64,000 nt of DNA from Sphingopyxis sp. GW247-27LB (GTDB lineage: Bacteria; Pseudomonadota; Alphaproteobacteria; Sphingomonadales; Sphingomonadaceae), in assembly GCF_002277025.1 (NCBI RefSeq), contig NZ_NIWD01000015.1:179968-243967 (forward strand), written 5' to 3'. Under the pieces are notes generated by a model. It ran no database searches. It was not told where the DNA came from and worked only from the letters and a program-made list of their open reading frames with translations. This document shows, one piece after another, positions 8,010 through 29,327 of the stretch. The position numbers were made by a program, and so were the translations under genes. Position 1 is the first letter of the stretch. Each line of letters opens with the position of its first letter.

Positions 8010-8308
8010 TCGAAGCCCGGCAGCACCGAAGCTGTTCTGCCGTGTTTCCGGAGAATAGACTCGATCTGGATCTATCTCGGTGCAGTCGGCTTGCATGCCG
8101 CAGCGGCAAGGCTATGCTTTGAAGTGCATCGGGCAAGGCGCACGGTGCCAGGCGTGAGAACCTGCTTAGCTTAGTCTTCCTATTCCATCCTGCCGGGTGG
8201 CCGCTGCGCATGTCCAAGCCTTAGGGCTAAAGGCGGCGGCGCTTGTTCGCTAAGCAAGTTCTCAACGCCCGGCTTGCCGCCTTCGTCCCGAACGGGAAGG
8301 CGGCAGGT

Positions 8309-8887
8309 ATGGACTTCGAGGACAAGGACAGCGAGCGACCGGGTATTGCCGGCGGCGACCCCTTGCCGCCGGAGGATTGGGAGCGGGTCGGGCGCTCGGC
8401 GCGCATCGAGGCGATCTACTCCGAGCACCGGCCGCACATCACCCGCTTCTTCCGCGGACGCGCCCCGAACCAGGATGTCGGCGACCTTGTGCAGGAAGTC
8501 TTCAGCCGCTTTGCGAGCGCGCGAGGCGGCCTCGCTGCGCTGGTCGAAGGCCCCGGCGCCTATCTGGTGAAGAGCGCCCGGATGCTCCTCGCCGAATATG
8601 GTCGCGCCGACGCGCGCCGCCACCGGTCGCAGCACGACAGTTTCAGTGACGAGCATGAGGGAGCGAGCGACCCGCACGCCGCGCTCGAGGCGCGAGACGT
8701 CCTGCGCCGGGCAGAAAGAGCCATTTCGAGGCTATCTCCGCTCACGCGCGAGATTTTCCTGATGCATCGCTTCGAAGGACTACGCTATCCCGAGATCGCT
8801 CGAATCAAGGGAATCAGCGTGAAGACGGTCGAAAGCCATATGACCAAAGCCCTTGCCGCCATCAAGCGCGCGCGGGGTAAGCAGTGA
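8309..8887 (+). CDS. ECF RNA polymerase sigma factor, FecI-like
   Basis: A 192-aa sigma factor. Region 2 (IYSEHRPHITRFFRGRAPNQDVGDLVQEVFSRF) and region 4 (RLSPLTREIFLMHRFEGLRYPEIARI, then VKTVESHMTKALAAI) are clear. FecI-type sigma factors drive the adjacent TonB receptor genes when signalled through FecR. The ATG at 8309 is preferred over an in-frame TTG at 8243, whose extra residues look random. Its stop overlaps the fecR start by four bases, so the two are coupled in translation. About 300 bases upstream are free of genes and should hold the promoter. In lasso loci of this type the pair probably senses lasso peptide at the receptor. Confidence 0.85.
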   Translation: MDFEDKDSERPGIAGGDPLPPEDWERVGRSARIEAIYSEHRPHITRFFRGRAPNQDVGDLVQEVFSRFASARGGLAALVEGPGAYLVKSARMLLAEYGRADARRHRSQHDSFSDEHEGASDPHAALEARDVLRRAERAISRLSPLTREIFLMHRFEGLRYPEIARIKGISVKTVESHMTKALAAIKRARGKQ

Positions 8888-9804
8888 GCCGCGCCGAAAG
8901 CGAAGCCACTGCCTGGCTCGACAAAATGATGGGACCCGATTCCGAAATGCACCGGGAAGCGTTCGACGAGTGGCTGGCCGAGCCGGGCAATGCCAAGGCC
9001 TACGATGAAGCGCGCGACAATTGGACCTGGGCCGCCGCCATGTCGCCTTCCCGGATCGAGGCCGATGTTCGGGCCGATGCTCGGGAGCGTGAACCCGGCG
9101 GGCGGCGATGGGCTTTTGCCACAATTCTCGCTGCGGTGATCGCGGTCGGGTTCGCTTGGTATCTGGTTGGCCGCGACAGCGATCAGCCGATCATCGCCAC
9201 CAATTCGGCGCAAGGCGAGAGCAGGCTCGCCGACGGGACGCGCGTGACGCTGATGGACGGTGCCCGCATCGAGACGCGCTTCTCGGACGGCGAACGCCGC
9301 GTCATTCTGTATGACGGCCGCGCCAGGTTCGAGGTCGCACACGACGCGTCGCGTCCCTTCCTCGTCGAGGCCGGAGATTCGGTCACCCGCGCGCTCGGCA
9401 CCATCTTCGAGGTCGATCTCCGCGCGGATGTCCCGCGCATCGCACTGGTCGAAGGCTCGGTCGAGGTGCGGCGCCTCGAGGGCGGCAAGGCACTTCGCCT
9501 CCGTCCCGGCGAACGCGCCGAGGTCAGGTCGACAGGCCCCCAGCCGATCACGGGTGAGGAAGCGAACACCCCGGCCAAATCGCTGTGGGCCGACAATCTC
9601 CCGCTTGGTGCGATCCTCGACCGCGCGGGCCGCGAGAATGGCGTCAAGATCAGCTTGGCCGATCCGGCGTTGGCATCGCTGCAGGTGACGGGGCGCTTCG
9701 ACATGACCGATGCCCGGAAACTTGCGCTGAAGCTCGGCGCCGCGCTTGATCTCAAGGTCGAGTTCGGTGCGAACGGACCAATTCTCGGCGCGAAATCCGA
9801 CTAG
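8884..9804 (+). CDS. FecR-family anti-sigma/sigma regulator
   Basis: A 306-aa inner-membrane signal protein starting at a GTG that overlaps the sigma stop (GTGA). The N-terminal cytoplasmic part has the FecR-type FDEWLAEPGNAKAYDE segment. One membrane helix lies near residues 76-95 (WAFATILAAVIAVGFAWYLV), and a periplasmic FecR domain follows with TRVTLMDGARIETRFSDGERRVILYDGRARFEV split over strands and a DUF4974-like C-terminus. It would receive a signal from the plug and STN domain of the TonB receptor encoded next and pass it to the sigma factor. The three genes run in order and in one direction, with only 87 bases before the receptor. Confidence 0.85.
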   Translation: MSRAESEATAWLDKMMGPDSEMHREAFDEWLAEPGNAKAYDEARDNWTWAAAMSPSRIEADVRADAREREPGGRRWAFATILAAVIAVGFAWYLVGRDSDQPIIATNSAQGESRLADGTRVTLMDGARIETRFSDGERRVILYDGRARFEVAHDASRPFLVEAGDSVTRALGTIFEVDLRADVPRIALVEGSVEVRRLEGGKALRLRPGERAEVRSTGPQPITGEEANTPAKSLWADNLPLGAILDRAGRENGVKISLADPALASLQVTGRFDMTDARKLALKLGAALDLKVEFGANGPILGAKSD

Positions 9805-9891
9805 GACGCCCAAGAAAAACCCATAGGGTGTTCGGAGCACCCGTCATTTTTTCCCTTCAGACGGCCAAAATCGGCCGCACGGGAGGGATGA

Positions 9892-12816
9892 ATGACGATG
9901 AAATTTTTCGCGGCCGCTCTGGCTTCGGGCGTATCCGCGACCGCATTTTACGCACCCAGCGCGTGTGCGCAGACGGGCGAGCAGACATACAATATCGAGG
10001 CACAGCGCCTTAGCGATGCGCTTCGCAAATATTCGGACATTTCCGGCCGCGAGGTCATCGCGGCTTCGAGCCTGCTTGAAGGCAGACGCAGCAACCGGGT
10101 CCGCGGGCGACTCTCTCCCGACGAAGCCCTCTCGCGCCTCCTTTCCGGCACGGGCCTGACGATCGAACTCGTCGAAGGCGCATGGGTGCTTCGGTCGGGA
10201 AACGTCGATGCCCGGGAAACTGGATCGACTGATCGAACCGACGAAGCGATCGTCGTCACAGGCTCTCGTATCCGTGGCGCAGGGCCAGTTGGTTCTCCCA
10301 TGACGACGGTCGACCGCGACGTTCTCGACCGGAGCGGTCGCGCGACTTTGGCCGATTTCATCCAGACCATTCCGCAGAATTTCTCGGGCGGTCCGACCGA
10401 AGCGAATGTCGGCTTCAGCAACCGAGGCAAAGCCTCGTCTAACATAGCCTATGGCACTGGCATCAACCTCCGCGGTCTGGGACCAGGGGCCACCCTGACG
10501 CTGTTCGACGGATCCCGGCCGGCCCTTGGAGGCGGTTCGGGCGCCTATGCCGACGTTTCGCTCGTCCCTTCGATCGCAATCGATCGTGTCGAAATCCTGA
10601 CCGATGGCGCATCCGCAATTTATGGTTCGGATGCCGTCGCGGGCGTGGTGAACATTCGCTTCCGCAACCGCTTCGAAGGCGCTGAAACTCGCCTGCGGGC
10701 CGGCACGGCAGACGGTGACTATGGCGAGGTCCAGATTAGCCAGATGCTAGGAAAAGGCTGGTCGACGGGCCACATCGTCGTGGCGGGGGAATATAGCCAG
10801 CGCGGCAATCTGGCTGCGACGAAGCGGCCCTTCGCGACCGAGGATCTGCGACCATTCGGCGGCCCCGACCTCCGGTCGAACTACAATAATCCCGGCACTG
10901 TCGTGGCGGCGAACGGCCAAAAGTTCCTGATTCCGCGCGGCCAGGACGGGCGCAATCTCACTCCTGCCGACCTTACGCCCAGCGCTGATTTCAATCGCGG
11001 CGACGCACGTCGACATACCGACATTCTGCCCAAACAGGAGACGATGGGTCTCTACGCGGCCATCGAGCAATCGCTTGGCTCGACTATCACGATCTTCGCC
11101 CGCTCGCTTTACTCAGAACGCAACTTCGAGGCCCGACGCCGTGTGAGCGGCCCGACGCCTGTCCGCGTGACGAGCGCCAATCCCTATTATGTCGACCCCA
11201 TCGGAACGGGGCAGCCGGTCACCGTCTACTATGATCCCGCCGCCGAGTTCGGTCCTGAAAGCCTGCGTGGCAAAGCCAAGGCGTTCAACAACGTCGTCGG
11301 AGCGCGGGCCGACATCGGAAGCTGGGTCATCGAACTGACCGGAGGGTTCGGACGGCAGCGGGAGCGCTATGACAGCTTCAATCTCGTGCATAGCCTCCGC
11401 TTCTCGCGGGCGGTCGCGGCAACCAGTCCTGCGCAAGCGATCAATGTCTTTGGCGACGGCGCGGTCAACGACCCAGCGCTCATCGACAGCCTGCGCGGGA
11501 GCATCGTCGCAGAAACACAATTCAAGGTGTGGACGGCGGCGCTTCGCGCAGACGGCAAATTGTTGTCTCTCCCCGCGGGCGACCTTAAGATGGCAATCGG
11601 CGCCGAGTACCGCCGCGACCGCTTCGCCTTTTCTCAGACCCTCGATCTTGTGACCGATACGCCGCTCGTGATCGGCATCCCCGGCCTACCCGACAAGCGC
11701 ATCATCAAAGCTTTTTACGGCGAACTGGTCGCGCCAATCTTCGATGCCGGGGACGCATTCCCTGGGTCGCTGACCCTATCGGCGGCTGCCCGCTACGAGG
11801 ATTATTCGGATTTCGGGGACACTGCGAACCCCAAATTCGGAGCGCGCTGGACGCCGCTGCCGGGTGTCGCGTTGCGTGCGTCCTACGGAAAATCGTTCCG
11901 CGCTCCTTTCTTCGACGAACTGGTCGGCACGGCGAATGCGCTCTACCAAACCTTGCGGGTCGCCGATCCGTCCTCACCGACCGGGCAGACCGTCGTGCTT
12001 GCCCTGTTCGGCTTTCAACCGGCGCTCCAGCCTGAGCGCGCCGAGAGCTGGACGGCCGGGCTCGACTTCGAACCGCGCGCCCTTCCCGGCGCCAAGCTTT
12101 CGCTGACCTATTTCGACATACGTTATCGGGACCGCATTGCGTCGGCCTCGAGCGATAGCCGGAACATTCTCAATAGGCGTGATCTCTATTCACCGATCAT
12201 TGAGGACGATCCCGCCCTCGCCACGGTAACCGGCTATTTTACTGGTCCGAACTTCTCAAATGCACTCGGGGTTGCTCCCGGCGATGTGCGCGCGATTATC
12301 GATCTCAGAACTCGCAATCTTTCGACCTCGACGATCCGCGGCCTCGACTTCGACCTCGCCTATTCGCGGCCCGTTGGCGAAGGCATCTTTTCGTTCAGTG
12401 TCGGTGGCACCCGGCTATTCGCGATCGACAACCAGATTACGGCCAGCGCGCCGCGAGATCGCGTCGTCGGTACGCTCGGAAATCCGGTCAAGCTGCGCCT
12501 TCGCGGCCGCGCCGGCTTCTCGATGGGCGCGTTCGACGGGGGTCTCGCGGTCAATCATGTCGGCGAGTACCGCAACCTGACCGTCACGCCCGCGGAGCGA
12601 GTGAAGAGCTGGACGACCCTCGATCTGCAACTCGGCGCGCGAATCGGCGATCTGCGGGGTCGTTCGCTTCGACTCGGCTTCAGCATCAACAATCTGTTCG
12701 ACAAGGATCCGCCCTATGCGCAGTTCCGGGGCCCCAGCTACGCGCTCGCCTATGATCCCGAGCAGGCGAGCGCGATCGGCAGGACCATGGCGCTACAGGC
12801 CGTTATCGCGTGGTAA
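9892..12816 (+). CDS. TonB-dependent receptor with STN signalling domain, lasso-locus type
   Basis: A 974-aa outer-membrane receptor. A signal peptide ends near ACA-QT (residue 26). Residues about 34-100 form a secretin/TonB short N-terminal (STN) domain, the part that signals to FecR. The plug starts at EAIVVTGSRIRGAG near 120, and the 22-strand barrel closes with a terminal Trp (LQAVIAW). GGGAGGG lies five bases before ATG 9892. The gene follows sigma and FecR and overlaps the isopeptidase gene by seven bases, an arrangement found in lasso-peptide loci of sphingomonads and caulobacters. It may import the locus's own lasso peptide or a related peptide. Substrate specificity cannot be read from the sequence. 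Confidence 0.85.
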   Translation: MTMKFFAAALASGVSATAFYAPSACAQTGEQTYNIEAQRLSDALRKYSDISGREVIAASSLLEGRRSNRVRGRLSPDEALSRLLSGTGLTIELVEGAWVLRSGNVDARETGSTDRTDEAIVVTGSRIRGAGPVGSPMTTVDRDVLDRSGRATLADFIQTIPQNFSGGPTEANVGFSNRGKASSNIAYGTGINLRGLGPGATLTLFDGSRPALGGGSGAYADVSLVPSIAIDRVEILTDGASAIYGSDAVAGVVNIRFRNRFEGAETRLRAGTADGDYGEVQISQMLGKGWSTGHIVVAGEYSQRGNLAATKRPFATEDLRPFGGPDLRSNYNNPGTVVAANGQKFLIPRGQDGRNLTPADLTPSADFNRGDARRHTDILPKQETMGLYAAIEQSLGSTITIFARSLYSERNFEARRRVSGPTPVRVTSANPYYVDPIGTGQPVTVYYDPAAEFGPESLRGKAKAFNNVVGARADIGSWVIELTGGFGRQRERYDSFNLVHSLRFSRAVAATSPAQAINVFGDGAVNDPALIDSLRGSIVAETQFKVWTAALRADGKLLSLPAGDLKMAIGAEYRRDRFAFSQTLDLVTDTPLVIGIPGLPDKRIIKAFYGELVAPIFDAGDAFPGSLTLSAAARYEDYSDFGDTANPKFGARWTPLPGVALRASYGKSFRAPFFDELVGTANALYQTLRVADPSSPTGQTVVLALFGFQPALQPERAESWTAGLDFEPRALPGAKLSLTYFDIRYRDRIASASSDSRNILNRRDLYSPIIEDDPALATVTGYFTGPNFSNALGVAPGDVRAIIDLRTRNLSTSTIRGLDFDLAYSRPVGEGIFSFSVGGTRLFAIDNQITASAPRDRVVGTLGNPVKLRLRGRAGFSMGAFDGGLAVNHVGEYRNLTVTPAERVKSWTTLDLQLGARIGDLRGRSLRLGFSINNLFDKDPPYAQFRGPSYALAYDPEQASAIGRTMALQAVIAW

Positions 12817-14786
12817 TTGCCGCCGCACTGCTGGCCGTCGCCGCACCCGCGGCGGCGGCGACACCCCGCGAGCCGGTCGGGGCCGCCGACCTCGTCGAGG
12901 TGTCCGAGATCAGCGGCCCCACTCTATCGCCTGATGGCGAACGCTTCGCCTTCCGGGTGAGCCGCGCTTCCCTCGAGAGCAATGCCATAACGCTCGAGTG
13001 GTATGTGGGGAGCGTGGATGGGCCGCCCCAACTTGCGGCGAGCGGAGGCAGCGCACGCGTCGATGGAGCAGGGCTCGTCTCCGATCAGACTCCGATCTGG
13101 GACAAGGACAGTAAAGGCTTTCGTTTTCTCGCCTTCCGCGATGGAGAAGTGACCCTCTGGCACTGGCGCGACGATGGCGGCGCCAAAATGGAGGTTCGGA
13201 ACGATGCCGACATCCTGGACTTCGCCGTATCGGACGATGGGGGGCTACTTCGCTACACTGTCGGTGCGACGCGTGCCGAGATCTCTCGCGCACAGACCGC
13301 CGCCTACGAAGGGGGCGTGCTGGTCGACGCACGCGTCGACCTCAACCAGGCGATTGCGGGCGGTGTGATCGAAGACGGCAAGCGCGTCATGCAGAGATTT
13401 TCCGGACCCTGGTTCGACCGAAAAAGTTTGTTGTGGGATGCGCCGCGCCGCGAGATTTTTGTGCCGAGCGTCGGCGCCACCCCCCATTCCGCGCCCAATG
13501 ACCAATTCTCGCTCCACTCCGCATCCCAACGTCCGTGGGCTGCAGCGCCCGATGGCAGCAAAGCAGAGATATTGCGTAAGGCAGGCAGCGCCTCCCTCGT
13601 GGTCACGCGCCCCGGCGGAGAGCGGATCCAATGCGAGGCGGAGTTCTGCCGTTCGCCAAAGCTGCTCGCAACCACGTGGCTGCCAAATCAGGACATCTTG
13701 CTGGCGTTTGTCGACGAAGGAAGCGCCCGCGAAGCCGTCTGGCTATGGAAAGTCGGGGCTGCGACGGCTCGCAAAGTCGCAATCACCGACGGAGCATTGC
13801 GTCTCGCCGACCGGCCATCGCGATGCGCCGTCACCATGCGCGCGCTGATTTGCGCCGAAAGCATGCCGCTCATTCCGCCACGCCTCGTCCGGATCGACCT
13901 TGCGACAGGGCAGCGCCGACCACTATTCGAACCGAACTCTGCGCTTGCCGCCAGAATTGACGCGGAGGCGAAGTCGCTTGAGCTGCCAGGCGGATACTCC
14001 GCGATATTGCTCAGCCCCCCACGGGCGAAAGCGCCACCCGTCGTGGTCCAGAATTATCATTGTGCCGGGTTCCTCAAGGGCGGCACGGGCGAAGAATTGC
14101 CGATGCTGCCCCTTGCGGAACATGGAATCGCGGTCCTTTGCATTGATCCGTTTCGGGGCCCGCCCGGAAGCGGAACCGATGGAACATATGAACTTGCCCG
14201 CACGGTCATCGCATCCGCGATCGCCGACCTTGGGCAACGCAAACTCGTTGATCCGAACCGCGTCGGCATCGCCGGTTTCAGCCACAGCTCGGGTGTAGCG
14301 CTCTGGGCGGTCCGGCACAGCACGAATTTCAAAGCCGCGACGATAGGCACGGGTCAGATTTCGCCTCATTATTTCTGGACCAACGCAGTTCCGGATCGAG
14401 GCTTTGAAGCCATGCTAAAGGATTACTGGAGCATCGGCGACCCGGATGCCGACCCCGCCCGCTGGCGTCTCGCCTCTGCAGTTCACAATGTTGAAGCGAT
14501 CAACACTCCCATCCTAATGCAATTGCCCGACGCGGAAGCAGCCTGGACGGCGGAGCTCCATACCAAGCTCAAACGCGCCGGAAAGCCTGCGGAAATGGTC
14601 GTCTATCCGGACGAGCTGCACAATAAATATCAGCTGCGGCACAAGCGCGCCGTTTACGAACGCAACCTCGACTGGTTCCGTTTCTGGCTGACCGGCGAGG
14701 AGGACCCAGCTCCCGGGAAATCCAAACAATATAACCGCTGGCGCCATTATCGCGCGGGACCGTCCTTGCCTGTGCCCGCGCGGTAG
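12810..14786 (+). CDS. atxE: Lasso peptide isopeptidase, Atxe2 family
   Basis: A 658-aa secreted serine hydrolase of the S9/prolyl-oligopeptidase fold. The GTG start overlaps the receptor stop and opens a signal peptide ending near AAAA-TPRE. A beta-propeller-like part (about 30-380) precedes an alpha/beta-hydrolase part with G489-F-S491-H-S493, S491 being the probable nucleophile, and H604 in YPDELHNKYQ as the probable catalytic His. Atxe2-type enzymes cut the isopeptide bond of lasso peptides and turn the knot into a linear chain. The position directly after a TonB receptor and facing lasso A-B-C genes is the family's usual setting. It probably acts in the periplasm on imported lasso peptide. 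Confidence 0.88.
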   Translation: MVIAAALLAVAAPAAAATPREPVGAADLVEVSEISGPTLSPDGERFAFRVSRASLESNAITLEWYVGSVDGPPQLAASGGSARVDGAGLVSDQTPIWDKDSKGFRFLAFRDGEVTLWHWRDDGGAKMEVRNDADILDFAVSDDGGLLRYTVGATRAEISRAQTAAYEGGVLVDARVDLNQAIAGGVIEDGKRVMQRFSGPWFDRKSLLWDAPRREIFVPSVGATPHSAPNDQFSLHSASQRPWAAAPDGSKAEILRKAGSASLVVTRPGGERIQCEAEFCRSPKLLATTWLPNQDILLAFVDEGSAREAVWLWKVGAATARKVAITDGALRLADRPSRCAVTMRALICAESMPLIPPRLVRIDLATGQRRPLFEPNSALAARIDAEAKSLELPGGYSAILLSPPRAKAPPVVVQNYHCAGFLKGGTGEELPMLPLAEHGIAVLCIDPFRGPPGSGTDGTYELARTVIASAIADLGQRKLVDPNRVGIAGFSHSSGVALWAVRHSTNFKAATIGTGQISPHYFWTNAVPDRGFEAMLKDYWSIGDPDADPARWRLASAVHNVEAINTPILMQLPDAEAAWTAELHTKLKRAGKPAEMVVYPDELHNKYQLRHKRAVYERNLDWFRFWLTGEEDPAPGKSKQYNRWRHYRAGPSLPVPAR

Positions 14787-14788
14787 GT

Positions 14789-14828
14789 TCGTGCCGGGCG
14801 GGCCTTCCCCGGGGGCCGCCCGGCACGA
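14789..14828. terminator. Hairpin between convergent isopeptidase and cyclase genes
   Basis: A perfect 13-base-pair stem, 14789-14801 (TCGTGCCGGGCGG) against 14816-14828, with a 14-base loop. It lies in the 81-base gap where the plus-strand receptor/isopeptidase arm meets the minus-strand lasso cyclase gene. There is no T run, so it may stall transcripts in both directions rather than be a classic terminator. Confidence 0.6.
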
Positions 14829-14867
14829 CATCTGCTGGATCGCGGCCGATGTTCCGGTCCATCGCCG

Positions 14868-16568
14868 CTAAATAGCGACATCCGGATGGCCCGACACCGA
14901 CCGCGCCCAGCGCTCAATGTCGGCGAAGCTCAATATTCGCGTCACCATCACGGGGTCTGGCCGCACGTTGTCGGCAAACAATGCCCCGACAGCTTCGAGG
15001 TCAAGAAGGCCCGCTCCCGCCAGCCACCCGTCGAGGAGGTAGGAACGTAGTCGACGGCGATGCGCCTCGAACGCCGGCAGGAATACCGACAATATACGCC
15101 CCTTTCCCAGTCGCTCGATTACCATCTCTGGCAGGTCTTGGCGAAAGGCCCTGCGCGCCAGCGCGCGGTTCTGGCCGCCTTCGCCCCACTGCCAGCTCGG
15201 CACGCCGAGCGTAAATTCGATGATTGGCTGCGAGAGCAACGGGGCGATCATCGGCATTGCCAAGGCGCGATCATAGCCGTCGAGGAACGGCTGTGCGATG
15301 AGAAGCTTGATCGCATAGACCTGCTGTCCGGGGGATGCCCGGTCTGCGTCAGCCATCCAGGGGTGCTCAGGATAGTCTCGCGCATAGCGACGCGTGAGGA
15401 GGCTGTGATCAACCGGCCACATTGGCGGCGGTCTCAGCAGTCGCTTTGCCGAATAGCCAAGGGCACGCCACATATTGTCATTGGCAAGGCGGGCAAGGTC
15501 GCCGGCAGCGCGCCATGCTTCGACCGGCCCAGCGTAACGTAGCGCGTCGAGAATGGGCGCCGCCGATGTCAGATAGCCGAAGACATTGTCGCCGCCGGTG
15601 CCTGTGAAGATCGCATCTGCCTCGAACTCTCGGGCGCCTTGGAGGTAAGCGCGGTCACTTGGTCCTAGCAGGCCGAAGCCGCCCGGACGCGCGCGCAGAA
15701 TTTCGAGCGGAGCCATCGGATCCCCGAACGGTGGACGCTGCCATTCCGCAAGGGGCGTTCCGACACGTTCGGCGACGGCGCGCGCATAGGGACGCTCGTC
15801 GCCGTCGGGATCGCTGGTCGCCATTGTCAGGGCGCGCCAAGGTCTGCGTCGGCCGGCGAGGCATGCCGCCATAATGCTGCTGTCGATCCCTCCCGACAGC
15901 TCAAGCTGGATACGCTCGAAGCGCATGCTCCAGGCCGACACCGTCCGACTGACCTTGTTGCGCAGATCTTCGGGATCGATCCGAGCAGGCGAGCGGCGCG
16001 TGTGGGCCCATGGCGACCAGCTTGTGGCCAGCGGCCGCACCGACCCCAAGGCGATAACCTCCCCCGGAAGGAGTTCACGCACACCGCGCAATTCAGCATC
16101 AGGGCCGCGAAGTAGAGGGAAGCGCATCCACGCGTCGATGCGTTCGGGGTCAGGCTGATCGAGCCGAAAGCCGAGGCTGCGTGCGAGTGAGAGATCGGTG
16201 AAAGCGATCGCACGCCCATCGCGATCTTCAAAACAGAATAGGGCTGGTCCGGTCATTGGGGAGCGAAGCAGCAAAATGCGCCCTTCCGGGTCAGCCCAGA
16301 AGAGCAGGAAGTTGCCCCATAGCTCCTTGATGGCCCATGCCCCTTCGCTCGACACGAGCCGGTCCACCTCGATCGCGGTCAAATGCTCGCAAACTCCCGA
16401 ACTCTGCCGATGAAAGGCCCAGCCAATAAGCGCAGTGCCGTTCGAGATCTCGGCGGGTGTATCCTTTTCCACAATTAGCCGGGCTCGCCCGACCGTCCCG
16501 GCCTCGACAAAGCCGACGGGAATGTTGCGATCGCTCGGGCCGATGATGAGGGCGATACGTAACGTCAC
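14868..16568 (-). CDS. Lasso peptide macrolactam synthetase (asparagine synthetase-like, C protein)
   Basis: A 566-aa protein of the asparagine synthetase B fold. The N-terminal half is a degenerate glutaminase-like domain: it lacks the start Cys needed for glutaminase activity and contains GAWAIKELWGNFLLFW. The ATP pyrophosphatase domain has SGGIDSS at 225-231 and a downstream GGDNVFGY. In lasso biosynthesis this enzyme adenylates the Asp or Glu side chain of the core and joins it to the freed N-terminal amine. It overlaps the B gene by four bases (ATGA), so both are translated together. It is the last gene of the A-B-C arm. Confidence 0.92.
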   Translation of the reverse strand: MTLRIALIIGPSDRNIPVGFVEAGTVGRARLIVEKDTPAEISNGTALIGWAFHRQSSGVCEHLTAIEVDRLVSSEGAWAIKELWGNFLLFWADPEGRILLLRSPMTGPALFCFEDRDGRAIAFTDLSLARSLGFRLDQPDPERIDAWMRFPLLRGPDAELRGVRELLPGEVIALGSVRPLATSWSPWAHTRRSPARIDPEDLRNKVSRTVSAWSMRFERIQLELSGGIDSSIMAACLAGRRRPWRALTMATSDPDGDERPYARAVAERVGTPLAEWQRPPFGDPMAPLEILRARPGGFGLLGPSDRAYLQGAREFEADAIFTGTGGDNVFGYLTSAAPILDALRYAGPVEAWRAAGDLARLANDNMWRALGYSAKRLLRPPPMWPVDHSLLTRRYARDYPEHPWMADADRASPGQQVYAIKLLIAQPFLDGYDRALAMPMIAPLLSQPIIEFTLGVPSWQWGEGGQNRALARRAFRQDLPEMVIERLGKGRILSVFLPAFEAHRRRLRSYLLDGWLAGAGLLDLEAVGALFADNVRPDPVMVTRILSFADIERWARSVSGHPDVAI

Positions 16569-17224
16569 AGCCGAAACACCGGCGTATAGTCAGCGACCAC
16601 ATTGACGTTGTCGGACAGCACCATTTCATTGTGTTGAACCCAGGCGTGCGCCGCAAAGGGATCAAGCCTGACACCGAAATAGACCTGGCCGGGTATTCCG
16701 CGCTGCCAGAGGTAGCGAGCCAAGGCCAGACTATCGGGCACGCAAAGACGCCGCCAAGGCAGCTGGACGCGCGCAGCCGCATATCCACGGGCAACCGCAC
16801 AGGCATGTCGGCGATCCACCATTGTCTCCGCGGTAAGGAGGTTATTCTTCAAGCGGCGCCATTGGGCTATGGTTTGTCCGAGACCGCGCAAACGTAGCCG
16901 GAGAGCCGCATCGAGCCGGTAACGTGCGATCTCCAGCGCGCCAGCACGCTGGCTCGGACCTGCCAGCTCGAGTGCGCTGCTCGTTGCGATGGGCGCGGAA
17001 ATTGGAGCGATTGAGGGGCCCGGCCCGTCGCCAATGAGGCGGCGTCTGGACAGCCTGCCTAACGCAGGTTCGATAGCCGCCGTCGTGAGCCCAGCGCCGA
17101 GCGCTTCGAGGACGCCAACCTCGGCACCTCGGAGCATCAAGTAGCGGTCCGCCTCAATGTCGAGGAGAACTGCACCGCCGCCCAGGAAGGCGAAGCTGAT
17201 GTGGGGTGGGAGATGATGGTCCAT
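16565..17224 (-). CDS. Lasso peptide leader peptidase with fused RRE (B1-B2 fusion)
   Basis: A 219-aa protein. The first 80 residues form a PqqD-like recognition element (HISFAFLGGGAVLLDIEADRY split over strands) that binds the leader. The C-terminal part is a transglutaminase-like cysteine protease with Cys161 (LCVPDSLALARYLWQRG), His193 (AAHAWV) and Asp205 (VLSDN) as the catalytic triad. It removes the leader after the conserved Thr at the -2 position and hands the core to the cyclase. A 45-base gap with a strong hairpin separates it from the precursor gene, and it overlaps the cyclase gene by four bases. Fused B1-B2 proteins are normal in proteobacterial lasso loci. Confidence 0.92.
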   Translation of the reverse strand: MDHHLPPHISFAFLGGGAVLLDIEADRYLMLRGAEVGVLEALGAGLTTAAIEPALGRLSRRRLIGDGPGPSIAPISAPIATSSALELAGPSQRAGALEIARYRLDAALRLRLRGLGQTIAQWRRLKNNLLTAETMVDRRHACAVARGYAAARVQLPWRRLCVPDSLALARYLWQRGIPGQVYFGVRLDPFAAHAWVQHNEMVLSDNVNVVADYTPVFRL

Positions 17225-17234
17225 TGAGGCAGTA

Positions 17235-17261
17235 CGGACGCGGCGCGGTGCGCCGCGTCCG
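17235..17261 (-). terminator. Attenuator-type hairpin between lasso A and B genes
   Basis: An 11-base-pair GC-rich stem, 17235-17245 (CGGACGCGGCG) against 17251-17261, with a five-base loop, fills the 45-base gap after the precursor stop codon. Hairpins at this place are known in several proteobacterial lasso operons, where they stabilise the A message and lower read-through into B and C. That would give many precursor chains per enzyme. Confidence 0.75.
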
Positions 17262-17269
17262 CCATCCCG

Positions 17270-17404
17270 TCAGTCGGCGGTGATCGCGCCGTCCGGCTTG
17301 AAGTGGATGACCGAGCCATCCTCGGGATAGGGCAGAAGCCCGCCGAGCGTTTCGACGCTGGCGACGCCCAGTTCTTCGATTTCGGCGTTGTCGATGCGGT
17401 CCAT
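17270..17404 (-). CDS. Lasso peptide precursor (A), 44 aa
   Basis: A 44-codon gene that sits directly before the B and C genes and is preceded by AAGGAGG six to eight bases from the ATG. The leader (residues 1-20) is MDRIDNAEIEELGVASVETL, with Thr19 at the -2 position that leader peptidases require. The predicted core is residues 21-44 (24 aa): it starts Gly21-Gly22, has Glu at core position 8 and Asp at core position 9 as possible ring acceptors, His14-Phe15-Lys16 as bulky candidates for the steric plug, and ends Ile-Thr-Ala-Asp. An 8- or 9-residue macrolactam ring with a long tail is expected. The tail ending recalls that of sphingopyxin I from memory. Confidence 0.88.
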   Translation of the reverse strand: MDRIDNAEIEELGVASVETLGGLLPYPEDGSVIHFKPDGAITAD

Positions 17405-17422
17405 GGGACCCTCCTTGGTTGA

Positions 17423-17440
17423 TGCCGCGGAATTGCGGCA
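17423..17440. promoter_or_regulatory. Dyad upstream of lasso precursor
   Basis: A perfect inverted repeat, TGCCGC (17423-17428), GGAATT, GCGGCA (17435-17440), lies 19 bases upstream of the precursor start codon. A TTGACC element abuts it on the minus strand (17442-17447). It could be an operator for the adjoining GntR regulator or a lux-box-like site; the sequence does not decide between them. Confidence 0.45.
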
Positions 17441-17476
17441 AGGTCAAAGCTACGCCTTTGATTTGGAATAGGAATT

Positions 17477-17493
17477 TTATAGTTTTGCTATAA
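17477..17493. promoter_or_regulatory. AT-rich dyad overlapping possible -10 of the lasso promoter
   Basis: TTATAG (17477-17482), five bases, CTATAA (17488-17493) forms a dyad in a short AT-rich stretch between the GntR stop and the lasso precursor. On the minus strand a TATAAA hexamer (17476-17481) overlaps it and could be the -10 box of the lasso A-B-C operon. No good -35 box was found at the expected distance. Confidence 0.45.
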
Positions 17494-17501
17494 CCCGAAT
17501 G

Positions 17502-18125
17502 TTATCGGAGCGGGTCGCTGCGCGGCCTCACTGCCGCAGCAATACGTCCGGCTTGCCGGGTACGCCGACGATGGAAGCTCGTGATTTTGCTGCGTAAACT
17601 TGTCCAACGGCCGAACCGGTAGTCTTCCTCCATCGCAGCCAGAGTGGCGCGCGATGCGGCGTCGATACGTAGCTCCGCCGAACGAAAAGCCCTACTTCGC
17701 TCGATAAAGTTCACGATGGCGTATCGAAGTTCGCGATTCGAAGCGCCGACGGCGATGACACCAAACAGCGAATCAATCGCCTCCGGATAAGGCTCGATCC
17801 GCTGCAGTTCGCTGAGTCCCGCCCGGAGATTCGGCGAAGGGTGCCTGCCCTTCAGCGCAAGTGCGAGTAGCATCCCACCCCATTCGTACAACTCAACAAG
17901 GTCTGCCTCAGCCAGCAAGGGCTGTCGAAAACCTTCTTGGTGCCAGCTATCGACGATGCGTTCTCCGGACAGGCGATGAAGGGCATCTCGCACCGGCGTT
18001 GCGCTCGCACCTAACGCGCGGGCCAATTGCCGCGGGTCGAGGCGCGTCCCGGGCGGATAGGCGCCGCTCATAATGCGCACCTTTAGGTCGATGTAGACCC
18101 GCTCCATCGTAGCGCCGGGGCTCAT
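17502..18125 (-). CDS. GntR-family transcriptional regulator (FadR-like)
   Basis: A 207-aa protein with a GntR winged helix at the N-terminus (VYIDLKVRIMSGAYPPGTRL, then RQLARALGASATPVRDALHRL) and a helical C-terminal part of the FadR/FCD kind, without clearly complete metal-binding His residues. Its ATG overlaps the stop of the PhyH gene by four bases, so it is co-translated with the luxI-phyH genes. The next gene downstream is the lasso precursor. Two dyad symmetries lie between its stop and that gene, which makes it the prime local candidate to control lasso production. The effector is unknown and could be a product of the PhyH-family enzyme. Confidence 0.8.
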   Translation of the reverse strand: MSPGATMERVYIDLKVRIMSGAYPPGTRLDPRQLARALGASATPVRDALHRLSGERIVDSWHQEGFRQPLLAEADLVELYEWGGMLLALALKGRHPSPNLRAGLSELQRIEPYPEAIDSLFGVIAVGASNRELRYAIVNFIERSRAFRSAELRIDAASRATLAAMEEDYRFGRWTSLRSKITSFHRRRTRQAGRIAAAVRPRSDPLR

Positions 18126-19033
18126 GCCGCCAGCGTCCCGTCCTCGCCCAACGATCGCTGCTCACCGATATAGTCAGCAAGAAGCGCCTGCTGATCTGGG
18201 CGAAGAGCATCCACGGCTGCGATCGGGTCGGGGGGATAGCCGCGGAACAGGATCGAGGGACACTGACCCTCGAAGTTGCCGAGGTTTGGGCGATGCTGGA
18301 CATAGCCGGTCAAGGCCGCCAGCTCGGGCGGAAAGTCCTTCGCGACGTCGGGTGGATAGGCGAGCCACTGGTTCTCGTAAGGTTTCAGCCAGCCGAGGCA
18401 GTAGCTGATGATGATCCCGCGCCGCGCCGCCGGGCTGCAATTGCCGCCGGCGCCGTGGAGCGTCGAACCCAGGAAGACGATAGCGTCACCCGGCATCGTC
18501 TCGGCAATGATCGGCGCTTCCGCCGGCTCCTCGACAAGCGCTTCGAGCCCATGGCTGTTCGGCCAGATGATCGTGGCGCCATTCTCCGCGGTGAAGGGCG
18601 TCAGCGGCCACATCACATTCACGAGATACTCGACCTCTCCGAGCGTCCCCTGCCACATGTCCTGATCGCGATGCGGGAACTGCGGAAGCGCTCCCGGATG
18701 CAGCTCGATCGCCTGGGCGAGATTGAGCTGAATACGCTCGCACCAGTCGCCGAGCGCGGCCTCGGCGAGGGCGAGGATCGCCGGGTTCATGACCAGCGCG
18801 CCGACGTGCGGCGAGCGGATGAGCAGGCGGCCGAAGCGCTTGGTGCGCTCGCCATAGAAGCCGCCCTCGCAAAAGGGCGTCGCGGCGTAGCGCGGATCGA
18901 GGTCGCGATCGATCGCCGCGATCAGCTCGGCGGGAACGGCTGAGCGGACGATCGCATAACCGTCTTCCTTGAGCGCCCGCATCGAGGCGGAGGGCGGCTG
19001 ATGGCTCTCTGCCGCAGCAATATTGGTACTCAT
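18122..19033 (-). CDS. Phytanoyl-CoA dioxygenase (PhyH) family protein
   Basis: A 303-aa Fe(II)/2-oxoglutarate-dependent oxygenase of the PhyH family. Iron ligands are visible as H-R-D in QFPHRDQDMW and the distal His in STLHGAGGN, followed by the 2-oxoglutarate-binding Arg in RRGIIISYC. The ATG at 19031-19033 follows AAAGGAG and is favoured over a longer opening to 19093. It lies 13 bases after luxI and overlaps the GntR gene. PhyH-family genes next to luxI/luxR recur in sphingomonads as I recall, suggesting the enzyme modifies or processes the signal or a linked metabolite. Its substrate is unknown. Confidence 0.82.
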   Translation of the reverse strand: MSTNIAAAESHQPPSASMRALKEDGYAIVRSAVPAELIAAIDRDLDPRYAATPFCEGGFYGERTKRFGRLLIRSPHVGALVMNPAILALAEAALGDWCERIQLNLAQAIELHPGALPQFPHRDQDMWQGTLGEVEYLVNVMWPLTPFTAENGATIIWPNSHGLEALVEEPAEAPIIAETMPGDAIVFLGSTLHGAGGNCSPAARRGIIISYCLGWLKPYENQWLAYPPDVAKDFPPELAALTGYVQHRPNLGNFEGQCPSILFRGYPPDPIAAVDALRPDQQALLADYIGEQRSLGEDGTLAA

Positions 19034-19046
19034 GGCCCCGCTCCTT

Positions 19047-19664
19047 TCACGCTGCATTGGCCGCGACCGGCGTCGCAGCGCTGCCCGAAACAATCCCCGC
19101 CGCCTTGAGCCTTGCGGGGGTGTCGGCGTCGATCTCGATCCGCAGCGAAGTCAGCGCGCGGCCATCGTAAATGCCGGGTTCGCCGAGCGCCGTGCAATCC
19201 CAGCCGAAGGTCCGGATCTGAGCGAACCAGTCGAGCTCGGCGACGCCGGTGTAGGAGCGGATGCCGTTAGCGAGCGCATAGTCGATCAGCCCGGCAAGAA
19301 GCGTGTCGCGAGCGATGCGGCGCTGACGCGCACCGATCCCCGGCGACAGGCAGAAGCGGGTGATCTCGAAGATATCGGGACCGGACGGCGGGATGCCGTT
19401 GACGAGGCCGGGGAAGAGACCGTCGAGAAGGGCCGGGCGCGTGGTGGGAAGGAGGCGCGCCGAGGCGAGATGCCCGCCGTCCTGATCGCCGACGATCAGA
19501 TAGGTCGCGTGGGGATCGTCGAAATGATCGATCTCGAACCGGTCGGCGAGCACCGGCAGGTCCCATTTCAGAAGATCGATGAAGACGCGCTTGCGCGCCT
19601 CGAACATCGCGCGGAGCAATTGATGCTCGTGTGCGCGGTTGGAATGGTCGATTACCGAAAGCAT
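19047..19664 (-). CDS. luxI: Acyl-homoserine-lactone synthase (LuxI family)
   Basis: A 205-aa autoinducer synthase. The conserved LuxI residues are all present at nearly the classic numbers: R24, F28 and W34 (EARKRVFIDLLKW), E44-D46-D49 (FEIDHFDD), R70 (ASARLLPT), E100 and R103 (FEITRF). The enzyme makes N-acyl-homoserine lactones from S-adenosylmethionine and an acyl-carrier protein. The ATG at 19662-19664 follows AAGGAGA; a longer opening to 19796 overlaps luxR and lacks conserved residues. It lies 91 bases after luxR in the same direction and leads the luxI-phyH-gntR unit. The acyl chain length cannot be read from the sequence. Confidence 0.93.
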   Translation of the reverse strand: MLSVIDHSNRAHEHQLLRAMFEARKRVFIDLLKWDLPVLADRFEIDHFDDPHATYLIVGDQDGGHLASARLLPTTRPALLDGLFPGLVNGIPPSGPDIFEITRFCLSPGIGARQRRIARDTLLAGLIDYALANGIRSYTGVAELDWFAQIRTFGWDCTALGEPGIYDGRALTSLRIEIDADTPARLKAAGIVSGSAATPVAANAA

Positions 19665-19755
19665 GGATGTGTCTCCTTTTCGAAAGAGACCATCCAATTG
19701 AACGGCTTTTTGCGGCTCCACCATAGCACGATCGGGGGGTGTCGACGAAAAAAGT

Positions 19756-20499
19756 TCAGCGCTTGGCGATATCCTCGTAGCTGAGGTCGCCGGCATAAAG
19801 CGCGCGCACGGTCAGCGTGATCCCGCCATTCGCGTCGTAACGCTGCCGCGCGTTGCGAAGATGCTCGCGAACCGTGTCGGGACTGAGATCGAGGATCCGA
19901 CCGACCTTCGGAGCGCTGTTCCCCTTGGCCGACAGGATCAGGCATTCGCGCTGGCGATCGGTCAGTCGCGGCCCGACCTGCGCGAGTTCGGGATTGGCGA
20001 GCAGGCGCGCGGCTTCGAAGGCCGGCCCACCGATCATTCTAGCAAAGAGCAGCGCCATATCATTGGCGGCGATCCCCGGCGTCCAGGCGAAGGACACCGA
20101 GCCATGCGCCTCGCCAGGAATGTGCGCCGGTATGGTAAGCCCGTCTCCTATTCCGTGCCGCTGCGCCTCGCTGAGAACCAGTTCGTCCTCGGGGCGTTCG
20201 CCCGAGAGCGGCTTCATGTTGCGCCAAAAGAAACCCTCGAGACTGCGGTGGCTGGCGCGATGCACGGGATCTGTGAGCCCAAGTCCGCGCTCGTCGAACC
20301 AGCGCGCCCAATCCTCGGGATAGTTGTGGACGCGAACACCCCTGTCGGGAGCCGCGAGGAAATCGACATGGTGGCTCAGCGCGAACCAGGAACAGCCCAT
20401 GCGCGCGCAGGCCTCCGCCAGCAGATCGGCCAGACCCGCCGCATCCTTCACCCGCGTGACGTCGAGCGCAAAAGCATGCGCAGCGTCCATCGTCGGCAT
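19756..20499 (-). CDS. luxR: LuxR-family acyl-homoserine-lactone receptor/regulator
   Basis: A 247-aa regulator. The autoinducer-binding domain keeps W64, D77-P78 and W92, equal to TraR W57, D70-P71 and W85; the usual Tyr61 is Phe68 here. The C-terminal LuxR helix-turn-helix reads LTDRQRECLILSAKGNSAPKVGRILDLSPDTVREHL across two helices. It binds acyl-homoserine lactone and activates or represses target promoters. It is placed first in the direction of transcription, before luxI, phyH, gntR and the lasso genes. Its own upstream region carries two AT-rich palindromes (20644-20653 and 20662-20684). Confidence 0.92.
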   Translation of the reverse strand: MPTMDAAHAFALDVTRVKDAAGLADLLAEACARMGCSWFALSHHVDFLAAPDRGVRVHNYPEDWARWFDERGLGLTDPVHRASHRSLEGFFWRNMKPLSGERPEDELVLSEAQRHGIGDGLTIPAHIPGEAHGSVSFAWTPGIAANDMALLFARMIGGPAFEAARLLANPELAQVGPRLTDRQRECLILSAKGNSAPKVGRILDLSPDTVREHLRNARQRYDANGGITLTVRALYAGDLSYEDIAKR

Positions 20500-20643
20500 T
20501 GCGACCCATGGCAGCGGACGGCAGTCGTCGCCAAGTCGGCCGACCGTCCCTGCTCCTCGTCATGGCCTGCGAGCGGTGCCCTCTCAATGGGCCGTCCCGC
20601 CGGCGACGGGTGATCGCCGCTGGTCATAGCGATCTACAATGAT

Positions 20644-20653
20644 GCAAATTTGC
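20644..20653. promoter_or_regulatory. 10-base palindrome GCAAATTTGC upstream of luxR
   Basis: A perfect 10-base AT-centred palindrome about 145 bases upstream of the luxR start. It is separated by eight bases from the 23-base palindrome. It may be part of the luxR control region or of a boundary site. Confidence 0.4.
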
Positions 20654-20661
20654 GGATGTTA

Positions 20662-20684
20662 CGAATATATTTCAAATATATTCG
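20662..20684. repeat. Perfect 23-base AT-rich palindrome
   Basis: CGAATATATTT (20662-20672), a single C, then its exact reverse complement (20674-20684). This is strikingly AT-rich in GC-rich surroundings. It sits in the 243-base gap between the mobile-element backbone (DUF2493 gene ends at 20743) and luxR. Possible roles are an operator for luxR, the extruded arm of a recombination or replication site, or a terminator for the DUF2493 transcript; no T tract supports the last. Confidence 0.6.
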
Positions 20685-20742
20685 GGAGATAGAACCAGAT
20701 TGGGGCCATTTTGCCGAAAGCCTCCGAATGCCCCGACTGCGA

Positions 20743-21675
20743 TCATCGGCCCCGCTTGCGAAAATCCCAGACGGGAAGGCCGATCTTCGCAGCCTTGTCG
20801 GCGAGATTGTCCTGAATGCCGGTGCCGGGGAAGATGATAACCCCGACCGGCAGAGCTTCGAGCATCCGGTCGTTGCGCTTGAATGGCGCGGATTTGCCAT
20901 GGCGGCTCCAGTCGGGCCGGAAGGCCACCTGCGTCACCTTGCGGGTTTCGGCCCAGCAGGCGGCGATACGCTCGGCCCCCGTTGGTGTCGCGCCATGGAG
21001 CAGGATCATGTCGGGATGGCGGTCGCGTGCGCGATCGAGAGCATCCCATATCGCCCTATGATCGTCGACATCGGCGCCGCCAGTGAACAGGATGCGCGTG
21101 CCCTCGGGAAGAAGTGCGGCCGCTTTCTGGCGCAATCGCGCGTCGAGAAAGTCGCGGCTGTCGATCATCGACGCGGTCATTGAGCGGTGCTGCGCGCGAG
21201 ATCCGGTGCGCGGCGCCCAGGCCTTGCGGCAAAGGGTCCGGAACTGGTCGGCGGCGCATTCGCGGAAGAATTCCATCGCGTCCCGGCGCTCGATGAGGGA
21301 AATTCCCTCGCGCGTCGCCCGTTCGAGCTCGACCGAGCGGATCTCGCTGCCGTCCTGCTCGCGCTGAAGTCGGCGCTGCGCCTGTTCATTGTCGTCGAGC
21401 TGCCGCTCGACCCGCTCGCCGGCGCGGTGGAAGATGTTGACGAGATTCCAGAGCAGGTCCTCGAGGTCGGGTTCGATACGGGTTTCGACGAGGCATCCCG
21501 CAAGCGCCTCGAACATGTCGGCAACCGCGCCGCCGGCGAGATGGGCGTCGGGGAGCGGCCGCGGATCGGGCTCGTCCTCGAAGGGCCTGTGGCCGAAGAG
21601 CTGCATCTCCTGGAGCAGATAGGCCGTCGTCCCGGGTTCTGCAGGGTGGTCGTGAGGGGCGGTATCGTCGCGCAT
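20743..21675 (-). CDS. DUF2493 (YspA-like SLOG) domain protein
   Basis: A 310-aa protein. The C-terminal 130 residues form a DUF2493 domain of the SLOG superfamily (RILFTGGADVDDHRAIW, HGATPTGAERIAACWAE, and FPGTGIQDNLADKAAKIGLPVW). The N-terminal half is helical, with a Glu/Arg-rich coiled-coil-like segment. DUF2493 proteins are staples of alphaproteobacterial plasmids and integrative elements and lie near Toprim, strawberry-notch and ParB genes, as here. SLOG domains bind nucleotides or nucleotide-derived ligands; the precise job is unknown. Confidence 0.85.
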   Translation of the reverse strand: MRDDTAPHDHPAEPGTTAYLLQEMQLFGHRPFEDEPDPRPLPDAHLAGGAVADMFEALAGCLVETRIEPDLEDLLWNLVNIFHRAGERVERQLDDNEQAQRRLQREQDGSEIRSVELERATREGISLIERRDAMEFFRECAADQFRTLCRKAWAPRTGSRAQHRSMTASMIDSRDFLDARLRQKAAALLPEGTRILFTGGADVDDHRAIWDALDRARDRHPDMILLHGATPTGAERIAACWAETRKVTQVAFRPDWSRHGKSAPFKRNDRMLEALPVGVIIFPGTGIQDNLADKAAKIGLPVWDFRKRGR

Positions 21676-21788
21676 CTTGGATCTCCGTCTGTGCCAGCCG
21701 CGCCTCGTGCGGCCTTCGCGGCGACGGAGAGCGGCATGCGGGGCGGGGCTGCATCGCGGCGCGCCGCGACCGTAGCGAAGCGGAGGAT

Positions 21789-21864
21789 GGCGGGTGCGCG
21801 GCTATTTTGCTTCGCGATGCAAAGGGGCCGGCAGGCCCCGGCGGAAAATAGCCGCGCACCCGCC
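21789..21864. repeat. 20-base inverted repeat with nested hairpin
   Basis: The 20 bases at 21789-21808 (GGCGGGTGCGCGGCTATTTT) are exactly complementary to 21845-21864. A second hairpin, GGGGCC (21824-21829) and GGCCCC (21834-21839), sits inside the loop. The structure fills the middle of a 310-base gap (21676-21985) without a gene, between DUF2493 and the Toprim gene. It could be a structured RNA, a strong terminator for the Toprim transcript, or a transfer or replication element of the mobile backbone. Confidence 0.75.
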
Positions 21865-21985
21865 GTTGCTGCCCCGCGCTGCCTGCCGCAGTCGCCCTCT
21901 CAAGAAGGCCGGGCGCGCGCCGCGCCAGTGGAAGGCCAACGCGGCCTCATGCTGCCACCCGCCCGTTCCGGCAAACCCGGCGCGA

Positions 21986-23017: not shown

Positions 23018-23028
23018 AAGGGGCTCCT

Positions 23029-27384: not shown

Positions 27385-27477
27385 TTCGGAAGATCCTTGG
27401 GAGAGCGGGAAGGGGACAAGCCGCCGGCCGCTCTCTCTGGGACCGGGTGGCTCATCCCTTTCCGGCCACCCTCTCCT

Positions 27478-28122: not shown

Positions 28123-28133
28123 GACAATCTCCT

Positions 28134-28167
28134 GAAACGAAAATGGCCCGGCGCTGCGGCCGGGCCA
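28134..28167 (-). terminator. Rho-independent-type terminator
   Basis: Reading on the minus strand, a nine-base-pair stem (28159-28167 with 28144-28152, six-base loop) is followed by TTTTCGTTTC. It lies directly downstream of the gene ending at 28187 and upstream of the gene starting at 28122. Confidence 0.7.
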
Positions 28168-28186
28168 GAGTGAGCGGTTCGAGCGG

Positions 28187-29180: not shown

Positions 29181-29254
29181 GATTGCCTCCCGCCGCCAGC
29201 GCCAGCATCGCCGACGCACCGCCAAGAAAGTCGTTTCGCATTTTCATTCTCCGT

Positions 29255-29290
29255 AAAAAGCGAAAGCCCGGCGCGATGACCGGGCTTTCG
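29255..29290 (-). terminator. Rho-independent terminator after parB
   Basis: On the minus strand an 11-base-pair stem (29280-29290 with 29261-29271, eight-base loop) is followed by CTTTTTA. It lies 37 bases after the ParB stop codon and separates that gene from the two small genes downstream. Confidence 0.85.
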
Positions 29291-29327
29291 AGGTGAAGTT
29301 CAGGTCGCCGCCATGCGCGGCGGAAGA

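Follow-up and report, generated by a model that had tools for sequence, protein, structure and literature searches.

Lasso peptide clusters that carry an isopeptidase (astexin/AtxE2, benenodin-1/BenE, sphingopyxin I and subterisin) are described with a constant layout, in which the A-B-C genes are accompanied by the isopeptidase, a TonB receptor, a sigma/anti-sigma pair and a GntR regulator, and their function is called enigmatic (PMC9266682, in the sections used here). The sphingocin locus of Sphingomonas BPH is built alike, with A-B-C and a divergent isopeptidase and TonB receptor (PMC11006600, likewise in part). Here we analyse a locus of this kind in a 64,000-nt stretch of the 4.79-Mb genome of a bacterium of soil and water, Sphingopyxis sp. 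GW247-27LB (contig NZ_NIWD01000015.1, positions 179,968 to 243,967), hereafter the window, in which all coordinates are given. The initial annotation of this stretch had listed Atxe2-type isopeptidases with paired receptors as known, and the arrangement has indeed been described for isopeptidase clusters (PMC9266682); since it is the published standard, gene layout alone is not new. The newness would lie in the surroundings, which appear quorum-linked and modular: unlike the clusters as described in those sections of PMC9266682, the window locus is joined to luxR-luxI-phyH, has a sigma gene with an RNA leader, and exchanges a cassette.

The order luxR-luxI-phyH itself is that of the sphingomonad quorum-sensing loci novR-novI-phyH (PMC3704786, PMC4288048, PMC5012321), one of which has a GntR gene downstream of phyH (PMC5012321). 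The word 'lasso' is absent from these three papers and from PMC7432010. In the open-access literature, no paper was found that combines lasso peptide, homoserine lactone and Sphingopyxis, and among the matches listed no title or abstract opening ties lasso loci to LuxI or reports a sigma-gene leader.

The reading to which we incline, with a confidence a little above even, is that of a quorum-sensing-linked, polymorphic lasso locus of sphingomonads, in which an exchangeable cassette sits in a regulatory frame and which would work by a make-recapture-sense-destroy mechanism. Its elements are listed below; family matches were judged against curated cut-offs (scores in bits, cut-off in brackets).

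8126..8308, + strand: structured RNA leader of the extracytoplasmic function (ECF) sigma gene (with a long-range helix, an alternative hairpin and pseudoknot-like pairing, followed by a hairpin upstream of the start codon)
8309..8887, + strand: ECF sigma factor; Sigma70_r4_2 62.7 (25.7)
8884..9804, + strand: FecR-type anti-sigma/regulator; FecR 56.2 (24)
9892..12816, + strand: TonB-dependent receptor with STN, plug and barrel; STN 37.7 (28.4), plug and barrel over their cut-offs
10192..10254, + strand: zone of the receptor in which the recombination junction falls; about residues 101-121, within the linker from STN to plug
12810..14786, + strand: Atxe2-type lasso isopeptidase, S491/E576/H604; NF033523 521.6 (400)
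14868..16568, - strand: C, macrolactam cyclase, asparagine-synthetase-like; Asn_synthase 81.8 (21), lasso role assigned from place and motif
16565..17224, - strand: B, leader peptidase, B2 domain; Transglut_core3 70.7 (26), NF033537 B2 67.2 (33)
17270..17404, - strand: precursor of 44 aa; predicted core GGLLPYPEDGSVIHFKPDGAITAD, ring probably Gly1-Glu8
17423..17440, - strand: 18-nt inverted repeat between the promoter region and the ribosome site of the precursor, present in most loci compared
17502..18125, - strand: GntR-family regulator, by family model
18122..19033, - strand: PhyH-family dioxygenase, by family model; ATG start set at 19033
19047..19796, - strand: LuxI-type synthase of N-acyl-homoserine lactone (AHL); PF00765 70 (24)
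19756..20499, - strand: LuxR-type regulator, Autoind_bind and GerE; PF03472 86.2 (23), PF00196 32.3 (23.5)
20667..20702, - strand: conserved AT-rich repeat and adjoining box (20689-20702) upstream of luxR

Frame and cassette recombine inside the receptor gene

As judged by sequence comparison, the block recombines between species as two modules, with one junction inside the receptor gene. The frame consists of luxR-luxI-phyH (and mostly gntR) on one side and of the RNA leader, ECF, FecR and the STN domain of the receptor on the other; the cassette, composed of precursor, B, C, isopeptidase and the receptor plug and barrel, lies between the frame halves. Four loci (L038, L046, L069 and L071, hereafter the frame mates) carry the frame of the window with another cassette. 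LuxR is 97-100% identical, LuxI 86-96%, PhyH 88-97%, STN 91-96%, FecR 93-95% and ECF 94-99%, as against 28-48% for B, 33-56% for C, 35-52% for the isopeptidase, 56-83% for the plug and 48-68% for the barrel. Conversely, L035 and L036 carry the same cassette in another frame, with an identical core, a plug at 91%, a barrel at 84-88% and an isopeptidase at 69-77%, as against 59-60% for STN, 49-53% for FecR and 47-49% for ECF. In DNA bins of 150 bases, the identity of the frame mates to the window is 81-100% at 8151-10250 and 18201-20700 (one L069 bin, 62%) and 17-78% between 10251 and 18050.

For 27 loci (351 pairs, after removal of four near-duplicates), rank correlations of pairwise identity fall into two blocks, with plug-isopeptidase at 0.88 and plug-C at 0.84 in one, and STN-FecR at 0.78 and LuxR-PhyH at 0.82 in the other. 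Plug and STN, which belong to the same protein, hardly co-vary (0.13). When 40-residue segments were slid along the receptor, the correlation with frame and cassette respectively was 0.81/0.21 at residues 81-120, 0.66/0.27 at 101-140 and 0.26/0.86 at 121-160. The junction zone holds a motif that we take to be TonB-box-like. A closed loop, in which the peptide is made, recaptured, sensed and opened, had been proposed in the initial annotation; it is plausible and gains evolutionary support from the correlations that involve STN, FecR, plug, isopeptidase and C, its quorum-sensing half having been missed.

Approximately unbiased (AU) tests were run on quick-method trees, for groups picked after the identities were seen: the frame data reject the group of the window with L035 and L036 (p-AU 1e-37) and the cassette data reject that of the window with its frame mates (p-AU 2e-6). 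A mere difference in rate, with a fast cassette and a slow frame, does not account for the pattern, as the cassettes of L035 and L036 resemble that of the window more closely than their frames do, and each tree rejects the group found for the other module. With types defined by cut-offs set here, frame F8 carries five cassette types (K2, K6, K7, K15 and K16), and cassette K2 occurs in three frames (F8, F12 and F15). The same SLOG-family and toprim genes stand beside luxR in all five other F8 loci.

The identical 24-residue predicted core of the window, L035 and L036 is found though their B proteins share only 62-70%. Between these three, 0 to 3 bases of the core DNA differ, each change being synonymous, and the range of 0 to 3 holds for other sets of identical cores too; such cores in diverged backgrounds would fit recent exchange or strong constraint. 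The recombination of frame and cassette, together with the shared history of peptide and receptor, provides evolutionary evidence that these two are cognate, a pairing that we regard as well supported.

Some loci hold a second receptor-isopeptidase pair. That of L062 is 89-91% identical to the cassette pair of L049, a locus of the same frame type, and the extra pair of L049 has its nearest counterparts (61-76%) in the cassettes of L040 and L041. Spare pairs of this kind would fit with receivers retained for a former or a neighbour's peptide. The extra receptor gene of L062 (13120-16919) is broken into two reading frames that are separated by about 0.8 kb.

The RNA leader and the quorum-sensing genes

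A 150-nt element (8126-8275) and the start-codon hairpin are conserved upstream of the sigma gene, and the leader they form is a well-supported candidate for a separate RNA family. In an alignment of 21 sequences (7 of 28 near-alike rows omitted, structure drawn from the same sequences), 97.5% of 693 cells were paired and sliding destroyed the pairing. Changes on both sides were observed for 11 pairs and 40 cells, compared to 4.4 and 9.1 after shuffling, values that 0 of 500 shuffles reached for either; one of five measures (further pair types) was matched by 20 of 500. A second, model-fitted set, comprising 29 matches from 28 loci, shows covariation at 20 of 24 pairs, with 113 cells compared to 19.9. 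The long-range helix and the alternative hairpin share bases, which suggests a switch. Leader identity is 91-97% among frame mates and 66-67% to L035 and L036; over 276 pairs it follows ECF weakly (0.25), LuxR at 0.46 and cassette genes at 0.02-0.04, and the weak correlation with ECF argues against a simple frame-only reading of the RNA.

At E<=0.001, the leader model has matches in 58 of 80 genus genomes and in 83 of 249 family genomes, covering 50 of 96 sampled genera (models in loci L214-L231). The leader precedes the sigma gene in 13 of 20 lasso loci of other genera and was not found in the other two lasso loci of the genome. For 48 further leader sites the downstream protein was taken by a mechanical rule, and 17 of the 37 scanned carry sigma-70 region 4. 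Lower-scoring relatives (L234-L261) precede genes that lack a sigma domain and often have no assigned function, and at L269 (12679-12808, - strand) the RNA lies upstream of a lasso B gene, on the B strand and not before a sigma gene. No Rfam family was over threshold, the best for the window being sRNA-Xcc1 (23.9 of 53 bits, E 0.036), and identity with a known riboswitch was not supported. C4 antisense RNA (RF01695/RF03163) was rejected, with c4-a1b1 at 11.1 compared to 46.7 bits in the window (E 2.4), no match in its own genome and 1 of 40 genus genomes over the cut-off. One distant leader match (L236, 1487-1541) overlaps a sub-threshold match to c4-a1b1 (C4 antisense target RF03163, E 7.5e-4).

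The initial annotation had described a 9-kb locus of seven genes. The precursor, B, C, isopeptidase, TonB receptor, FecR and ECF genes were all located where it had placed them and their families were confirmed; the locus is larger, as the lasso strand runs on through gntR, phyH, luxI and luxR up to 20499. Besides these four genes (17502-20499), the initial annotation had overlooked the structured leader of the sigma gene and two more Transglut_core3 (lasso B) loci in the genome. Since Met45 of LuxI is conserved in 35 aligned proteins (97% rule), the true luxI start is probably near 19664.

Linkage of these genes to lasso loci was followed in three samples. The genus search covered 80 genomes, and 40 stretches were chosen from isopeptidase matches; 35 loci, four of them near-duplicates, were counted once the genome's own other loci (L054-L057) and a 5-kb contig (L063) had been set aside. 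PhyH is found in 35/35, LuxI in 34/35 (L050 stops at the contig end) and all ten modules in 30/35. A scan of named genomes returned at least 245 relatives ranked by similarity to the query, with Sphingopyxis over-represented; 78 loci were kept, 61 of which hold C, 52 of these with at least 4.5 kb beyond it, and groups were assigned from titles and shared contigs. Among the matches listed, LuxI, LuxR and PhyH occur in 26/26 sphingomonad loci with room, as against 0/26 for LuxI and PhyH in the non-sphingomonad named loci with room (mostly Xanthomonadales). L089 (titled Rhodospirillales), with too little room to be counted, carries GntR and a partial PhyH at the contig end. L117, titled Paenibacillus dendritiformis, is a TonB receptor-isopeptidase-C-B-GntR locus of the Xanthomonadales kind and probably a contamination. 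In the other genera of the family, 20 of 26 isopeptidase places over the cut-off were fetched: two have no visible B or C and one stops at a contig end; in 2 the quorum genes are found beyond the sigma gene, and in 1 LuxR stands alone. A role of PhyH as a peptide-tailoring enzyme is unlikely, as PhyH varies with LuxI (0.80) and LuxR (0.82) and not with C (0.26).

The gap between gntR and the precursor (17405-17501) contains a conserved AT-rich promoter-like region and the inverted repeat. The window, L035 and L048 share one GntR allele and one version of a nearby repeat; GntR action at the region upstream of the precursor is thus suggested. The AT-rich repeat upstream of luxR has no other site within the window. 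Its adjoining box, a pattern chosen after the sequences were seen, is present in 16/24 loci; in 6/26 it is met again upstream of the sigma leader, at a fixed spacing, compared to 52/5000 random windows. The sigma-side copy in the window (8062-8075) has two mismatches, and the four matches to the box at up to 3 mismatches in the window, this copy among them, are within chance (shuffle mean 1.78, with four reached in 9/100).

The lasso genes, their predicted peptides and the neighbouring genes

By family models, the adjacent genes for the STN-domain receptor, FecR and the ECF sigma factor make up the gene set for cell-surface signalling, sigma region 2 being below its cut-off (19.9, cut-off 24). 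The isopeptidase aligns to the AtxE2 structure (PDB 5txc, E=1.3e-52). In this enzyme, described in the initial annotation as a Ser/His isopeptidase, S491, E576 and H604 are kept in 36/36 aligned proteins; PDB 5txe has Ala at the position where AtxE2 (5txc) carries the Ser aligned with S491. Secretion of the enzyme is putative, on the basis of an N-terminal hydrophobic stretch judged by eye. The SGGIDSS motif reported for the cyclase is present in C, for which the lasso-specific models are all under cut-off (NF033561 61.6 of 300, NF033535 27 of 525). As to the C161/H193/D205 triad ascribed to B, C161 and H193 are found in 36/36 aligned proteins, whereas at position 205, 23 of them have D and 13 have G, so that a full triad with D205 is unsupported across the family. 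The N-terminus of B, which the initial annotation had called a RiPP recognition element (RRE), gave no match to an RRE family even at E<=5; residues L21, D22 and Y28 are invariant among aligned B proteins, and this part is possibly an RRE domain.

The precursor scores 30.5 against Pfam Subterisin PF24178, over the gathering score of 27, and 27.7 against NCBIfam benenodin NF033522, under the cut-off of 33. Its cleavage region (...VETL/GGLLPYPE) has Thr at leader position -2, a core that opens with Gly and a ring acid within positions 7-9. The predicted cores were delimited by eye as the part that follows the Thr-x site, Thr-x-Gly having belonged to the search pattern for the other loci. Across 36 loci, Gly1 and Glu8 are present in all 45 cores (36 distinct) and Asp9 in 7, which makes a Gly1-Glu8 ring most likely for the window.

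The second lasso locus of the genome (L056 and L057, contig C4) combines LuxR-LuxI-PhyH-GntR with two receptor-isopeptidase arms; it also has two candidate precursors and an additional LuxI. The third (L054 and L055, contig C20) has two divergent receptor-isopeptidase arms, and the predicted core in L054 is sphingocin-like, with 17/22 residues identical by eye to sphingocin as given in the part of PMC11006600 used here. Beyond the window locus, the 3' flank (20743-31934) holds genes of the type found on plasmids or integrative and conjugative elements (ICE), namely SLOG-family YAcAr, DUF7146/toprim, a Strawberry-notch helicase and ParB, and 35598-55669 contains several resistance-nodulation-division (RND)-type efflux and metal-resistance-like genes, judged by eye.

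Proposed mechanism, rival explanations and known systems

The most likely function, as read from sequence, is density-gated production of a strain-specific peptide that is then recaptured, sensed and destroyed. At high cell density, LuxR with AHL and the local GntR would switch on precursor, B and C, and a peptide with a Gly1-Glu8 ring would leave the cell. Only cells with the matching barrel would take it up; the ligand-bound receptor would signal via STN to FecR and free the ECF sigma factor, which would in turn raise receptor and isopeptidase, and the isopeptidase would open the peptide and so end the signal. Since the parts that make, recognise and destroy the peptide travel as one while the output stays resident, a lineage could change its peptide type in one recombination step. 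We infer that the locus is an allelic, strain-specific recognition system and that the peptide would act as a pheromone rather than as a carrier or weapon. Much more tentatively, and with a confidence clearly below even, sphingomonad isopeptidase-type lasso peptides at large might be strain-specific pheromones, a second identity signal downstream of AHL, whose allelic cassette is spliced at the receptor junction onto a resident signalling half and whose read-out operon stands under a new RNA leader widespread in the family.

Several observations weigh against this picture of a quorum-linked, two-module locus. The modules are not perfectly separated, since the barrel follows the cassette more (0.69-0.84) yet also the frame (0.43-0.54), B correlates with the frame at 0.30-0.49, and the gntR of the window sides with the cassette (91% to L035, 90% to L048, 65-66% to the frame mates); that of L038, L046 and L071 stays with the frame (97%). 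Neither module agrees with the rpoB region (rank correlations of -0.05 to 0.24 over 322 pairs), and descent of either with the species was not seen. The quorum-sensing linkage is not universal, being contiguous in 9 of the 20 other-genus loci; the 40 kb fetched around the third locus of the genome yielded no LuxI. It is also possibly not confined to sphingomonads, as L098 (titled Caulobacteraceae) has a LuxR-like protein (69 bits) and a weak LuxI-like one (43 bits, cut-off used 60) near the sigma gene. Finally, the precursor has a conserved upstream region of its own, no lux box was demonstrated at the locus, and the module pattern would also be expected of a peptide that serves as a siderophore-like carrier (compare pyoverdine/FpvA; PMC11366639, in part).

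Such a siderophore-like carrier would bind metal or a small cargo and re-enter via its cognate receptor, ring opening by the isopeptidase freeing the cargo and quorum control limiting the sharing of a public good. We consider it rather unlikely, though the strongest of the rivals. A TonB receptor with a sigma/anti-sigma pair resembles siderophore systems, and the hypothesis has been put forward in the consulted parts of PMC9266682 and PMC11006600; Sphingomonas BPH is reported to have lost the ability to use phenanthrene when its lasso B gene was mutated (PMC11006600), and pyoverdine receptors too group by peptide type and not by species (PMC11366639). However, the passages cited name no cargo for this family, and the residues conserved in all 45 cores, Gly1 and Glu8, are ring residues, with no conserved metal-ligand set by eye. 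An arms race would be suited by the allelic diversity and by spare pairs that match other loci, if the peptide were a narrow-spectrum bacteriocin against relatives with the same barrel, the isopeptidase an immunity enzyme and the spare pairs retained resistance. We regard this as improbable: known isopeptidase-type lasso peptides are reported without antimicrobial activity, astexin-1 excepted (PMC9266682, in part), identical cores persist in diverged backgrounds, and keeping a spare receptor would invite killing. Least probable of all is that quorum sensing and lasso peptide are functionally uncoupled, linkage to luxI/luxR and mosaic structure being by-products of a recombination-prone, mobile-element-like region. 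The plasmid/ICE-type genes of the 3' flank and the movement of both modules relative to rpoB would agree with it, but the junction coincides with a boundary between domains, each block keeps functional partners together (STN with FecR, plug with isopeptidase), and luxI and phyH stay linked in nearly all genus loci and in nine loci of other genera.

From the module pattern, the likely ligand of each receptor can be named, and the five cassette types in one frame supply natural matched and mismatched pairs; together with the tie to quorum sensing, this makes the role of isopeptidase-type lasso peptides testable with deletion strains and purified peptides. A peptide-plus-receptor half that is swapped like a cartridge among relatives may help to explain the purpose of such peptides. 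The locus resembles the pyoverdine/FpvA locus of Pseudomonas, where variable peptide and receptor track each other and some strains have extra receptors (PMC11366639, in the part used here). It differs in that the peptide is ribosomal and knotted, that an isopeptidase is dedicated to it and that the junction falls within the receptor gene, leaving STN behind. With cell-surface signalling of the Fec/Fpv type it shares the STN receptor, FecR and ECF sigma factor, whereas the proposed ligand here is a lasso peptide.

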